NCBI RefSeq assembly: GCF_017104565.1
Contig: NZ_JAAGPD010000011.1
Coordinates: 62,001 to 126,000, forward strand
Source: Paraburkholderia sp. Tr-20389
Lineage (GTDB): Bacteria > Pseudomonadota > Gammaproteobacteria > Burkholderiales > Burkholderiaceae
Reading direction: 5' to 3'
DNA length: 64,000 nucleotides
A program made the translations under genes and the position numbers. Each line of letters opens with the position of its first letter. Positions within the stretch are counted from its first letter, which is position 1. Shown here piece after piece: positions 48,339 to 59,482 of this stretch. Below the pieces are notes generated by a model. That model was not told the origin of the DNA, did not search any database, and saw nothing but the letters and a program-made list of their open reading frames with translations.

Positions 48339-49025
48339 ATGATCGACCATCTCATTTGCGACTGTGACGGTGTGCTCGTCGACAGCGAAGTCATCGCCGA
48401 CCGCGTGATGCACGACACGCTCGCCTCCACGTTTCCCGCGCTCGATTTCCACGAGATCTGCAAGACCGCGTTTGGTCAGCAGACTTCGCGCTTTCTGGAG
48501 AGCGTCGAAAAGGCATTCGGCATCGAACTGCCCGCTGACTTCTTGCAGACCGTCGAGGCGAATGTCGAAGCGGAGCTGGCGTCCTCGCTATCCGCGATCA
48601 GCGGCGTGCGCGATGCGTTGCAGCGGGTGCCGCTGCCGGCGGCTGTCGTATCGAACAGCCGGATGACACGGGTGAGCGCGTCGGTACGACGCGCGGGGCT
48701 CGCCGAGATTTTTGGGCCGCGTGTTTTTAGCGCGGAACAGGTCGCGCGGCCTAAGCCTTATCCTGATGTTTATCTGTTTGCTGCGCAGCAGTTGGGTGTC
48801 GAGCCCTCGCGGTGTGTGGTTGTCGAGGACAGCGTTTCGGGTTTGAATGCCGCTCGCGCGGCGGGCATGATGACGATTGCTTTTGTTGGCGCCAGCCATA
48901 TTCCTGATGGCTATGCCGATGTGCTTCGCAGTATGGGCATTACTCGGATCATGCAGCACATGGATGAGTTGCATGCGTTTGTTGAGGCGGGACTTCGAGG
49001 GGAGTTTGGAGGCGTGCAGTCATAG
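48339..49025 (+). CDS. HAD-superfamily phosphatase (beta-PGM-like subfamily IA)
   Basis: 228-aa hydrolase. Motif I DCDGVLVDSE at residues 8-17 supplies the nucleophile Asp, motif II is AAVVSNS, motif III a Lys in ARPKPYPD and motif IV VVVEDSVSGLNAARAAGM. Cap helices lie in between, as in beta-phosphoglucomutase and sugar-phosphate phosphatases. Substrate unknown. From about 48700 to the stop the codons shift from G/C- to T-ending (CCT, GAT, TTT, GTT, ATT), unlike the first half. Its stop is followed by the long palindromic element. Confidence 0.9.
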   Translation: MIDHLICDCDGVLVDSEVIADRVMHDTLASTFPALDFHEICKTAFGQQTSRFLESVEKAFGIELPADFLQTVEANVEAELASSLSAISGVRDALQRVPLPAAVVSNSRMTRVSASVRRAGLAEIFGPRVFSAEQVARPKPYPDVYLFAAQQLGVEPSRCVVVEDSVSGLNAARAAGMMTIAFVGASHIPDGYADVLRSMGITRIMQHMDELHAFVEAGLRGEFGGVQS

Positions 49026-49032
49026 TTTTTTC

Positions 49033-49791
49033 TTGTCTGCGACGCAGCCGCCGTTCTTGCCTTCTCGGCGCGTTTTTCGCCTTTTAGTTTTTTGCTCTGT
49101 GCTTTCGCTGGCATCCGCGTTTTGCTTCTGGTTTGCTGGCGTTGCCCCTGTGCGGGGCGGCACTTACTTTCTTTGCCGCCGCAAAGAAAGTAAGCAAAGA
49201 AAGCGGGCTCACACCGCCAGCACTAGTGATTGCCTGCGGGCCCCCGACGGGTCCCGCACTTCACACGGCGACACTGTGTTTTGCGCCCGTTGCCAGCGCC
49301 TCGAACCGGCGCATCACCCACTCCAATCACCCGCAGGCAGCCAGCGGCAGCGACTCGTCTGCGCCGCCCAGGTGGCAAACTGTGTGTAGCTTGTCGCACC
49401 ATATGCGTTCGCGCTTCTACGACACCGATCCCGCTTTTCAGTCCGGAGTGGTGCACTTCCATCGCGACGGCCTACACACAGTTTGCCACCTGGGCGGCCG
49501 CGAACGCCTGGTAACGCGGCCCGTGACGCGGGAGTGTGAAGCGTGTGATGCGTGAGGTAGCACGCTGGCAACGCGCGTGAGACAGTGTGTTGCCGCGTGG
49601 AGTGCGGGACCCGTCGGGGGCCCGCGGGCAAGCACAAGAGCTAGCGGTGTGAGCGGCTTTCTTTTGCCTACTTTTCTTTGCCGCTGCAAAGAAAAGTAGG
49701 TGCCGCCCCGCACAGGGGCAACGCTAGCGAACCAGAGACACAACGCGGATGCCAGCGAAAAACCAAAGAATGACGACTGCGTCGCAGACAA
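49033..49791. repeat. Large palindromic repeat element, copy A
   Basis: Nested inverted repeats from outside in: TTGTCTGCGACGCAG (49033-49047 with 49777-49791); TTTCGCTGGCATCCGCGTT (49103-49121 with 49742-49760); a 25-bp arm beginning GCGTTGCCCC (49139-49163 with 49700-49724); hairpins of 13 bp (49163-49194) and 15 bp (49667-49700) built on ACTTTCTTTG; CTCACACCG (49208-49216 with 49645-49653); a perfect 25-bp arm beginning GCGGGCCCCC (49236-49260 with 49601-49625); diverged inner arms; and a perfect 27-bp repeat beginning GCCGCCCAGG (49363-49389 with 49472-49498) around an 82-nt loop. Short frames inside it are not credible genes. Core 49103-49760 is 658 bp. A second copy lies at 58662-59317. 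Confidence 0.92.
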
Positions 49792-49797
49792 ACAAAC

Positions 49798-50532
49798 TCA
49801 AACCTCGACACATGCCTCCCGCGCAAGCGCAAGCGAGCGCCGAAACTCGACAAGCTCGGCAATGGTCAGCATCGGCATATCATGCCTGGCGGCGAACGCC
49901 TCAACATCGGCGCCCCGCATCATCGTTCCATCGACATTCATCAACTCACACAACACACCGGCGGGCTTCAGCCCCGCCAACGTCACGAGATCGACGGTCC
50001 CTTCCGTATGCCCGCGCCGCGCCAGCACGCCGCCAGGCATCGCCCGCAACGGATACACATGACCAGGCCGCACGATATCGGCAGGCTTCGCACGATCCGC
50101 GATCGCGGCGCGAATCGTCGTCAGCCGGTCCGCAGCGGACACGCCTGTCGACACGCCCTCGCGTGCTTCAATCGATACCGTGAACGCCGTCGTGTTGCGG
50201 CTTTCGTTGTGAGCCGTCATCGGCGGCAATTCGAGCGCGCGTACCCTCTCGTCGGTCAGGCACAGACACACGATGCCGCTGCACTCGCGAATGAACAGCG
50301 CCATCATCTCGACGCTCATCCGTTCGGCGGACATGATCAGGTCGGCTTCGTTCTCGCGATCGTGATCGTCCTGAAGCACGACGGCACGGCCTTCGCGCAA
50401 AGCGTCGAGCGCGGCAGCAATGCGCGGCGGAACAGGTTCGGTGGCAAGCAACGGGAGATCGGCAACGGCATCCTCCGCGACGACGGACGGTGCAGGCCAG
50501 GCAAATGCAGCAGAGTTGGATACAACGGACAT
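49798..50532 (-). CDS. ribB: 3,4-dihydroxy-2-butanone 4-phosphate synthase
   Basis: 244-aa riboflavin-pathway enzyme forming DHBP from ribulose 5-phosphate. Residues corresponding to [57 protein letters not shown] and [24 protein letters not shown] give the acidic metal-binding loop and active site; there is no fused GTP cyclohydrolase II domain. The first 40 residues are variable. Start at 50530-50532 follows GAGGAG. Expression should be controlled by the FMN riboswitch upstream. The last 25 codons are unusually rich in T-ending codons, next to the repeat element. Confidence 0.93.
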
Positions 50533-50533
50533 G

Positions 50534-50573
50534 TGAAACGCTCCTCGCAAGAGTGTGGGCGAAAAACGTTTCA
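50534..50573 (-). promoter_or_regulatory. Hairpin holding the ribB ribosome binding site
   Basis: On the minus strand TGAAACG (50567-50573) pairs with CGTTTCA (50534-50540), leaving GAGGAG in the loop and the stem ending two bases before the ATG. A candidate part of the expression platform of the riboswitch upstream. Confidence 0.45.
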
Positions 50574-50754
50574 GGGCATTGCAAACAGACAAACGCGTTC
50601 CTCCAGCCGCAACGGCTGCCATGCGACAAACGGACAGACCACGCGCGCCGCTCGCAATGAGCAGCACGACGGCCACCTTCTCGCATGAAACGAGGACAAC
50701 GCGCCAATAACGCGCCCGTCCCCGTCGACAGGAACAGTCAGATGACTATCTGCA

Positions 50755-50921
50755 CATCTTCTTCCATCCGGACTCTAACCGTCGGCTCCGGCATCTCACC
50801 AGATCTGCTGACCCTGCATCCCGAACTGCGACGCAGGCGCTCGCGGGCTCGCAGACTCGCGCGCCATGATGCGCGCCGCCTGCATACCGCCGGTGGGGAA
50901 TTTCACCCCGCCCTGAAGACG
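50755..50921 (-). ncRNA. FMN riboswitch (RFN element)
   Basis: On the minus strand the conserved RFN segments occur in order: TTCAGGGCGGGG, TTCCCCACCGGCGGT, GAGCCCGCGAGC, GTCAGCAGATCTGGTGA, GCCGGAGCCGACGGTTA and AGTCCGGATGGAAGAAGA. The six-stem fold is complete. It begins about 390 nt before ribB and ends about 220 nt before its start, so the expression platform is long. FMN binding is expected to lower ribB expression. Confidence 0.96.
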
Positions 50922-50999
50922 TACTGATTACCGGAACGATCCGGTTCGCAGAGCATACAACAACCTCGCGCGACGTGCAGCCCGCGCGTGAGACGTGTT

Positions 51000-58628: not shown

Positions 58629-58661
58629 GTGCGCCTTTGCGGCGCGGGCTGATCGCTGGCT

Positions 58662-59317
58662 TTTCGCTGGCATCCGCGTTGTGTTGCTGGTTTGCTGGCG
58701 TTGCCCCTGTGCGGGGCGGCACTTACTTTCTTTGCCGCCGCAAAGAAAGTAAGCAAAGAAAGCGGGCTCACACCGCCAGCCCTTGTGTTTGCCTGCGGGC
58801 CCCCGACGGTTCTTACGCTCCGTGCGGCAACACGCTATTTCATGCGCGTTGCCAGCGTGCTACCTCACGCATCACCCGCTTCACACTCCCGCGTCACGAA
58901 TTGCGTTACCAAACTTCCACCGCCGCCCAGGTGGCAAACTGTGTGTAGGCCGTCGCGATGGAAGTGCACCACTCCGGACGGAAAAGCGGGATCGGTGTCG
59001 TAGAAGCGCGAACGCATATGGTGCGACAAGCTACACACCGTTTGCCACCTGGGCGGCGCAGACGAGTCGCTGCCGCGGGCTGCCTGCGGGTGATTGGAGT
59101 GGGTGATGCGTCTGTTCAAGGCGCTGGCAACGGGCGCAAATCAGCGTGATGCCGTGTGGAGTGCGGGACCCGTTGGGGGCCCGCAGGCAAGAACAAGGGC
59201 TGGCGGTGTGAGCCCGCTTTCTTTGCTTACTTTCTTTGCGGCGGCAAAGAAAGTAAGTGCCGCCCCGCACAGGGGCAACACCAGCAAACCAGCAACACAA
59301 CGCGGACGCCAGCGAAA
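58662..59317. repeat. Large palindromic repeat element, copy B (inverted relative to A)
   Basis: Reverse-complement copy of the element at 49103-49760. Core length is 656 bp against 658. Ends again carry TTTCGCTGGC / GCCAGCGAAA, then CGTTGCCCCT arms and the ACTTTCTTTG hairpins; the outer 150 nt of each arm are almost perfectly complementary to each other. The inner 27-bp repeat (58922-58948 with 59031-59057) has one mismatch. The 82-nt loop is the reverse complement of the loop in copy A with one difference. A degenerate form of the outermost motif follows at about 59353-59372. Located between chaC and corC; no credible gene inside. Confidence 0.92.
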
Positions 59318-59482
59318 AGCGAAAAGCGAAAACCAAAAACCAAAACCGGCACCGCCGCGCCGCAGGCAAAATCAGTTAGGATAAAAGCGAAAACCCACCG
59401 GGACAGGGACACAGTCCCGCCACGCCCGTGGTGTATCCTTAACGCTCTGCAACAGCGCGCCCAGCTTTCCGGGCGCACCATC

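Follow-up and report, generated by a model that had tools for sequence, protein, structure and literature searches.

A nested palindrome separates two convergent genes

The window, a 64,000-nucleotide stretch of the Paraburkholderia sp. Tr-20389 genome, contains a long gene-free palindrome between two reading frames that converge on it. The left neighbour encodes what we take to be a HAD-type phosphatase and the right one is presumably ribB-like; upstream of the latter, a minus-strand segment (50740–50930) appears to resemble an FMN riboswitch. At locus L002, a long run of TTTTGC hexamers lies directly to the left of the element. The features of the locus, and a second copy elsewhere in the window, are as follows.

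48339–49025, plus strand: left neighbouring gene, converging on the element; start codon assigned by reading
49028–49058, plus strand: left outer shell arm of the GTCTGCGACGC type, distinct from the core (inverted-repeat search)
49103–49765, no strand assigned: core of the giant nested palindrome, the conserved unit of the repeat family (inverted-repeat search and comparison of copies)
49141–49161, plus strand: strongly conserved end motif, left copy; an inward-facing hairpin with a trailing T-rich tail, resembling terminators and REPs
49163–49194, plus strand: local hairpin, type A arm (inverted-repeat search)
49363–49498, plus strand: innermost inverted repeat with its asymmetric centre, belonging to the interior, which is not the same in different species versions
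49667–49700, plus strand: local hairpin, type B arm (inverted-repeat search)
49702–49722, minus strand: right copy of the end motif, pointing inward
49766–49796, minus strand: right outer shell arm, complement of 49028–49058 (inverted-repeat search)
49798–50676, minus strand: right neighbouring reading frame, converging on the element; translation may truly start further inside the frame
58657–59320, minus strand: second copy of the family (similarity to the first copy)

The initial annotation had described a nested palindrome of about 0.7 kb with mirrored partner segments and one local hairpin in each arm, and both parts of this description hold. The two halves of 49028–49796 pair in mirrored order through four nested sets of arms: 49028–49058 with 49766–49796 (31 nt, 84%), 49103–49170 with 49693–49760 (68 nt, 91%), 49187–49298 with 49563–49674 (112 nt, 81%) and 49363–49397 with 49464–49498 (35 nt, 91%). 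The folded core (662 nt; −485 kcal/mol) is a single rod in which 265 of 271 pairs join the left half to the right, as had been foreseen for a transcript, and the interior alone, with 130 nt cut off each end, still folds with z = −7.7 against 40 dinucleotide shuffles. Terminal repeats of the GTCTGCGACGC type form separate outer shells that vary from copy to copy, and such an arm occurs without the core in a relative. The annotation of the element as gene-free was right in substance: chance reading frames exist, and a frame of at least 190 amino acids is open across the element in only 3 of 69 copies, on which ground we reject a protein-coding reading. A nested, roughly 0.7-kb non-coding palindrome at 49103–49765, with its outer shell, is thus confirmed.

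Copies are numerous and found across Paraburkholderia

A 23-nt end motif matches the Tr-20389 genome 127 times in the forward and 124 times in the reverse direction with at most one mismatch, compared with none in either direction for a reversed control. By this motif count the genome holds about 125 copies of the palindrome, including the second copy in the window, which matches 49693–49765 at 92% and is presumably flanked by ChaC-like and CorC-like genes. A BLAST search of the same genome scored 40 places, query included, from 162 candidates, all at least 84% identical over most of their length; these matches and the motif counts exceed what chance would give. For comparison between copies we assembled a set of 69, 20 from BLAST-scored places and 49 from BLAST places or the first 100 motif places; only motif pairs of 440–620 bp were admitted, and the set is not a random sample. 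Within this admitted range, the motif pairs measure 577–586 bp in 68 copies and 508 bp in one, in line with the early remark that the element is larger than ordinary MITEs or REP/BIME units. Median pairwise identity among the 69 copies is 85%.

The initial annotation had made its reading depend on further copies in related genomes, and the end motif is present in 127 of 145 genus genomes, with 0 to 249/251 hits per genome. Matches in a plasmid collection fall in 22 records, 10 from Paraburkholderia (including P. largidicola, P. caribensis and P. phymatum), 7 from Burkholderia and 5 from Caballeronia; those of the latter two genera match the palindrome only in part. Named genome contigs carrying the motif belong mostly to Paraburkholderia species among the matches listed. 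A phage collection returned no match, and we reject a phage origin. As the best explanation taken as a whole, these elements probably form a Paraburkholderia-wide family of giant intergenic palindromes of about 0.45–0.75 kb that lies at gene 3′ ends, foremost between convergent genes, and evolves as a single recombining population.

In 17 of 17 representatives the folding energy lies below the mean of 40 shuffles (z from −1.5 to −10.3) and the share of pairs crossing the midpoint lies above the shuffle mean; this share also exceeds the shuffle maximum in only 11 (the exceptions are G002, G015, G018, G012, G023 and G014), so that most of them, though not every one, form a clear rod. Several species represented in this set have interiors that resemble the Tr-20389 interior no more than shuffled sequence does.

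Addresses look stable and apparent loss leaves remnants

Among the best 30 loci of hits to the HAD–ribB site in 143 genomes, 8 carry both end motifs, 2 carry one, 18 have short spacers (53–246 nt) without the motif and 1 ends at a contig edge; G021 lacks both the motif and a ribB match, and G078 and G152 also lack a ribB match within the stretch. At this site the Tr-20389 element is 84% identical to its orthologue in G020, compared with a mean of 87.7% to its own paralogues, and the element in G103 is a version with a different centre that matches all 40 scored places in G103 (196 candidates). We extended the comparison to nine more sites, taking the first nine among 26 that were suitable. The gap between the flanks is at least 688 nt at all nine sites in G020 and at least 702 nt at eight of nine in G103, whereas in G095 it is long at three and short (137–342 nt) at six. 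Motif pairs of normal spacing occur at five sites in G020 and five in G103, and one G103 site has two end motifs only 54 nt apart. A long gap is no proof of an element by itself, because one site is long in both G020 and G103 yet free of the motif. Where compared, the addresses of the elements look stable.

Judged by its HAD gene (91%), no relative is closer than G095, so parsimony suggests that elements have been lost there. Five of its short sites comprise two with fused arm ends (collapsed hairpins), two with an outer shell and one with nothing recognisable, and its HAD–ribB site keeps the outer shell, so that five of these six spacers hold remnants or shells.

Alleles reassort among copies and outer arms share a pool

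Linkage between variable sites decays over short distances within the element. Across 118 biallelic sites in the 69 Tr-20389 copies, mean r2 falls from 0.33 at less than 5 bp to 0.02 beyond 100 bp, and 94–97% of site pairs show all four gametes; a clonal simulation without recombination gives r2 = 0.41. Copies have in common runs of variable sites averaging 16.9, compared with 9.4 when copies are permuted. In the four-contig genome G103, all 40 fetched copies were usable and r2 is 0.29 below 5 bp, 0.06 at 5–15 bp and about 0.03 beyond 60 bp. The value is already low at 5–15 bp, so recurrent mutation remains a candidate when G103 is taken alone; more generally, recurrent mutation could mimic part of the low linkage.

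The left and right outer arms draw on one allele pool. Fst between left and right arms in Tr-20389 is 0.00–0.03 over the outer 146 columns and climbs to as much as 0.71 at the centre, apart from a single drop to 0.12 within a conserved block; in G103 it is 0.00–0.04 up to column 101, although columns 42–101 hardly vary there. Low outer-arm Fst combined with divergence at the centre would result either if copies exchanged arms or if the centre flipped. Arm types assort independently (AA 29, AB 16, BA 16, BB 7, one unclassed; Fisher p = 0.79), and correction within a copy is weak, because similarity between the two arms of a copy (0.786) hardly exceeds that between arms taken from different copies (0.775).

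Orthologous elements differ in clusters between strains

P. largidicola strains PGU16 and F2 each carry 39 end-motif hits on one large plasmid record, and among the fetched stretches an orthologous site was found for all PGU16 motif pairings but one. We kept 15 of 24 pairings, setting aside one without an orthologue, three that overlapped, two with inserts of insertion-sequence size, two with one-flank matches elsewhere and one longer variant (98.5% identical between the strains). For two of the 15 the match rests on a single flank, and one of these two runs opposite to the rest. Counting gaps, the difference within the 15 orthologous elements is 6.9%, compared with an average flank identity of 99.2% over 23 matched pairings. 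Clusters of at least four mismatches occur in 10 of the 15 pairs and are absent from the other 5; when both flanks are required, the difference is 7.4% and clusters occur in 9 of 13 pairs. One strain pair is identical over most of its sequence, with the differences concentrated in part of the right arm. In one pair the core aligns about equally well in direct and inverted orientation (0.80 versus 0.78), and in another the inverted alignment is better (0.855 versus 0.740), so an inversion or an inverted conversion is possible there. Not every strain pair shows such tracts, because in three compared elements strain 22B1P matches PGU16 at 99.7–100%, without a tract. Among the PGU16–F2 tracts, two short ones (47 and 31 nt) match another copy exactly; for tracts of at least 75 nt the best match among the other copies compared was 76–96% identical and no donor was found.

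Recurrent ectopic conversion as the favoured explanation

It appears that copies stay where they are and overwrite parts of one another's sequence, a form of concerted evolution on the scale of the genome that is unusual for bacteria. Judged from sequence comparison, the explanation that best accounts for the family is recurrent ectopic gene conversion, which we consider likely. Copies would be overwritten by RecA-type conversion in either orientation, including exchange from arm to arm or flipping of the centre, perhaps triggered when an extruded palindrome stalls or breaks replication. Conversion of this kind would preserve both the complementarity of the outer arms and the uniformity of the family, and copies would be lost by hairpin collapse. 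SbcD is the expected palindrome nuclease. It scored above the cut-off in only 1 of 12 genomes (G129:C107:7516–8325), and that genome has the highest motif count, so a simple model in which SbcCD breaks drive conversion has no support.

It is possible, if somewhat short of probable, that the palindromes constitute a new class of bacterial repeat with fixed addresses and a shared, freely recombining sequence. The palindrome would be maintained by inverted conversion from an arm in one copy to an arm in another, or by the centre flipping, and a new centre could sweep through the addresses of a species to produce species-specific versions at orthologous sites. In bacteria, as judged from E. coli, a long palindrome should be unstable, yet genomes here carry up to about 250 end-motif pairs. 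The family could serve as a natural recorder of ectopic gene conversion, since two strains differ by readable clusters: the rate of conversion, the length of its tracts and its direction from arm to arm would be directly measurable in a multi-replicon genome.

Resemblance to REPINs and other palindromic repeats

A doubtful alternative is that each palindrome is a giant REPIN, two inverted REP-like ends with a pairing spacer, copied by a RAYT protein of the Y1/HuH type, so that copies are alike through repeated transposition. REPINs, or REP doublets, were reportedly described by Bertels and Rainey in 2011. An active RAYT gene usually adjoins REP motifs. The architecture agrees well: like the doublets in the portion of PMC3116915 available to us, the palindromes are intergenic, occur in many copies and combine highly conserved inverted ends with a less conserved pairing spacer of constrained length. 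By reading, the type B end motif also has a GTAG-like tag beside a small palindrome, a tag known from REPs (PMC3733652, available in part). The scale does not agree, since the doublets have 71 bp between their ends (PMC3116915, same portion) and the palindromes have about 560 bp, making them eight times larger, and extra nested shells.

The only RAYT candidate seen is a gene with a Y1_Tnp match, which 142 of 143 genus genomes have; in Tr-20389 it encodes a single 235-residue protein, and in some of ten genomes inspected (L354–L363) the reading frame is longer. The gene also occurs in the motif-free genomes G011, G042 and G053, no end motif lies beside it in those ten loci of about 3.3 kb each, and its HuH histidines look lost. 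Its presence without the motif and its apparently lost HuH argue against it as the RAYT of the family; with its degenerate-looking HuH it is possibly a domesticated RAYT. Linkage equilibrium and clustered strain differences are moreover not a pattern of transposition. The palindromes differ from REPINs in having no recognisable active RAYT and in the reassortment of alleles among copies, and we file the family apart, as a dispersed palindrome.

The palindromes also share features with the BIME and REP sequences of enterobacteria, namely palindromic form, a suggested role for conversion and location at gene 3′ ends in many copies (63 of 65 classified copies adjoin at least one gene 3′ end). REP units measure 20–40 bp in the accessible part of PMC3733652, and the palindrome is far longer; in our family, unlike BIMEs, strain differences can be read directly as clusters. 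The conversion reading could for this reason answer an old question about REPs, whether conversion keeps palindromic repeats uniform. Higgins is said to have raised gene conversion as a question for REP evolution in 1988. We found no description of the palindrome family in the open-access literature, most subscription papers lying outside this scope, in agreement with the initial annotation, which knew of no named family with this layout; the available parts of PMC7186790, PMC2267715, PMC3521395, PMC12306157 and PMC3116915 do not describe it.

Genomic setting and transcription

We regard it as improbable that each copy is instead kept by selection as a two-way terminator or RNA-stability element, with uniformity owed more to selection than to conversion, although several observations fit such a role. 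Of 65 copies that could be classed with a codon-based gene finder (4 of the 69 were incomplete), 35 lie between convergent, 28 between tandem and 2 between divergent genes, compared with 7, 35 and 8 neighbouring pairs, respectively, in the window. The 26-nt end pattern is mismatch-free in all 78 hits on the PGU16 and F2 plasmids although one mismatch was allowed. By reading, the HAD–ribB site of several relatives that lack the element has a G+C hairpin bordered by runs of A and T. Terminator-like sites in the element region number 4, compared with 1.3 in shuffles, and terminator-like hairpins point inward from both ends; these may stop transcription in both directions, although on this sequence evidence we lean against it. 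A stricter terminator scan did not flag the end hairpins, whose T tail is weak, and element orientation within tandem gene pairs is even (15 versus 13). Intrinsic terminators facing an element are not depleted (14 of 84 versus 6 of 57 gene ends, p = 0.34), which gives no support to a general replacement of ordinary terminators by elements.

Mismatches within the rods point mildly in the direction opposite to that expected for a plus-strand RNA. Across 69 copies the totals are close (G–U 998, A–C 1,119), a point against selection on RNA; A–C mismatches outnumber G–U ones in 41 copies and are outnumbered in 18, and only 10 of the 69 copies fold better as the plus strand. We therefore reject constraint on a plus-strand RNA, with a mild bias toward the minus strand; of the proposal that a transcript forms a rod, the fold stands and a plus-strand signature in the mismatches does not. 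Moreover, neither clustered tracts nor independently assorting arms arise from selection alone. Both palindrome ends weakly match Rfam RF02421 (Bp1_684, a predicted Burkholderia small RNA; 31.4 and 27.2 bits) below its gathering score of 44, the model covering 113 positions at one end. The toxic small RNA of Burkholderia (RF02278; PMC4603805, available in part) was not among matches up to E = 1.

Mobile-element readings and insertions within the palindrome

The initial annotation suggested a non-autonomous mobile element, of which the high-copy family stood; no cognate transposase or target duplication came to light among the loci read, and addresses look stable where compared. A MITE, meaning a short derivative of an insertion sequence that keeps its terminal repeats and is mobilised by its transposase with target duplications, is very improbable: the palindromes resemble bacterial MITEs in being non-coding and in their terminal inverted repeats and high copy number, but differ in that no autonomous parent was seen among 11 long versions inspected for reading frames, boundaries are variable nested shells and sites are common to different species. 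It is scarcely credible that assembly chimeras and independent hot-spot insertions created an apparent mosaic, even though Tr-20389 is a draft of 129 contigs, some ending near elements, because the linkage pattern recurs in four-contig G103 and clustered differences also separate two P. largidicola records titled complete. Two Tr-20389 contigs begin about 100 bases from an end motif, and palindrome copies may break draft assemblies.

Among the 11 long versions, 9 hold transposase-like genes inside (L051–L054, L058, L059 and L062–L064, from G000, which is Tr-20389, and G043, G045 and G046). We take these genes to be of several unrelated types, presumably IS481-, IS256- and IS5-like. The nine look like separate insertions, and we reject them as cargo-carrying autonomous versions; the palindrome seems to be a landing pad for insertion sequences. 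In the other two, L057 and L060 from G045, no transposase reading frame was recognised in the extra DNA of about 1.1 kb, and L057 has a 150-residue reading frame between its motifs.
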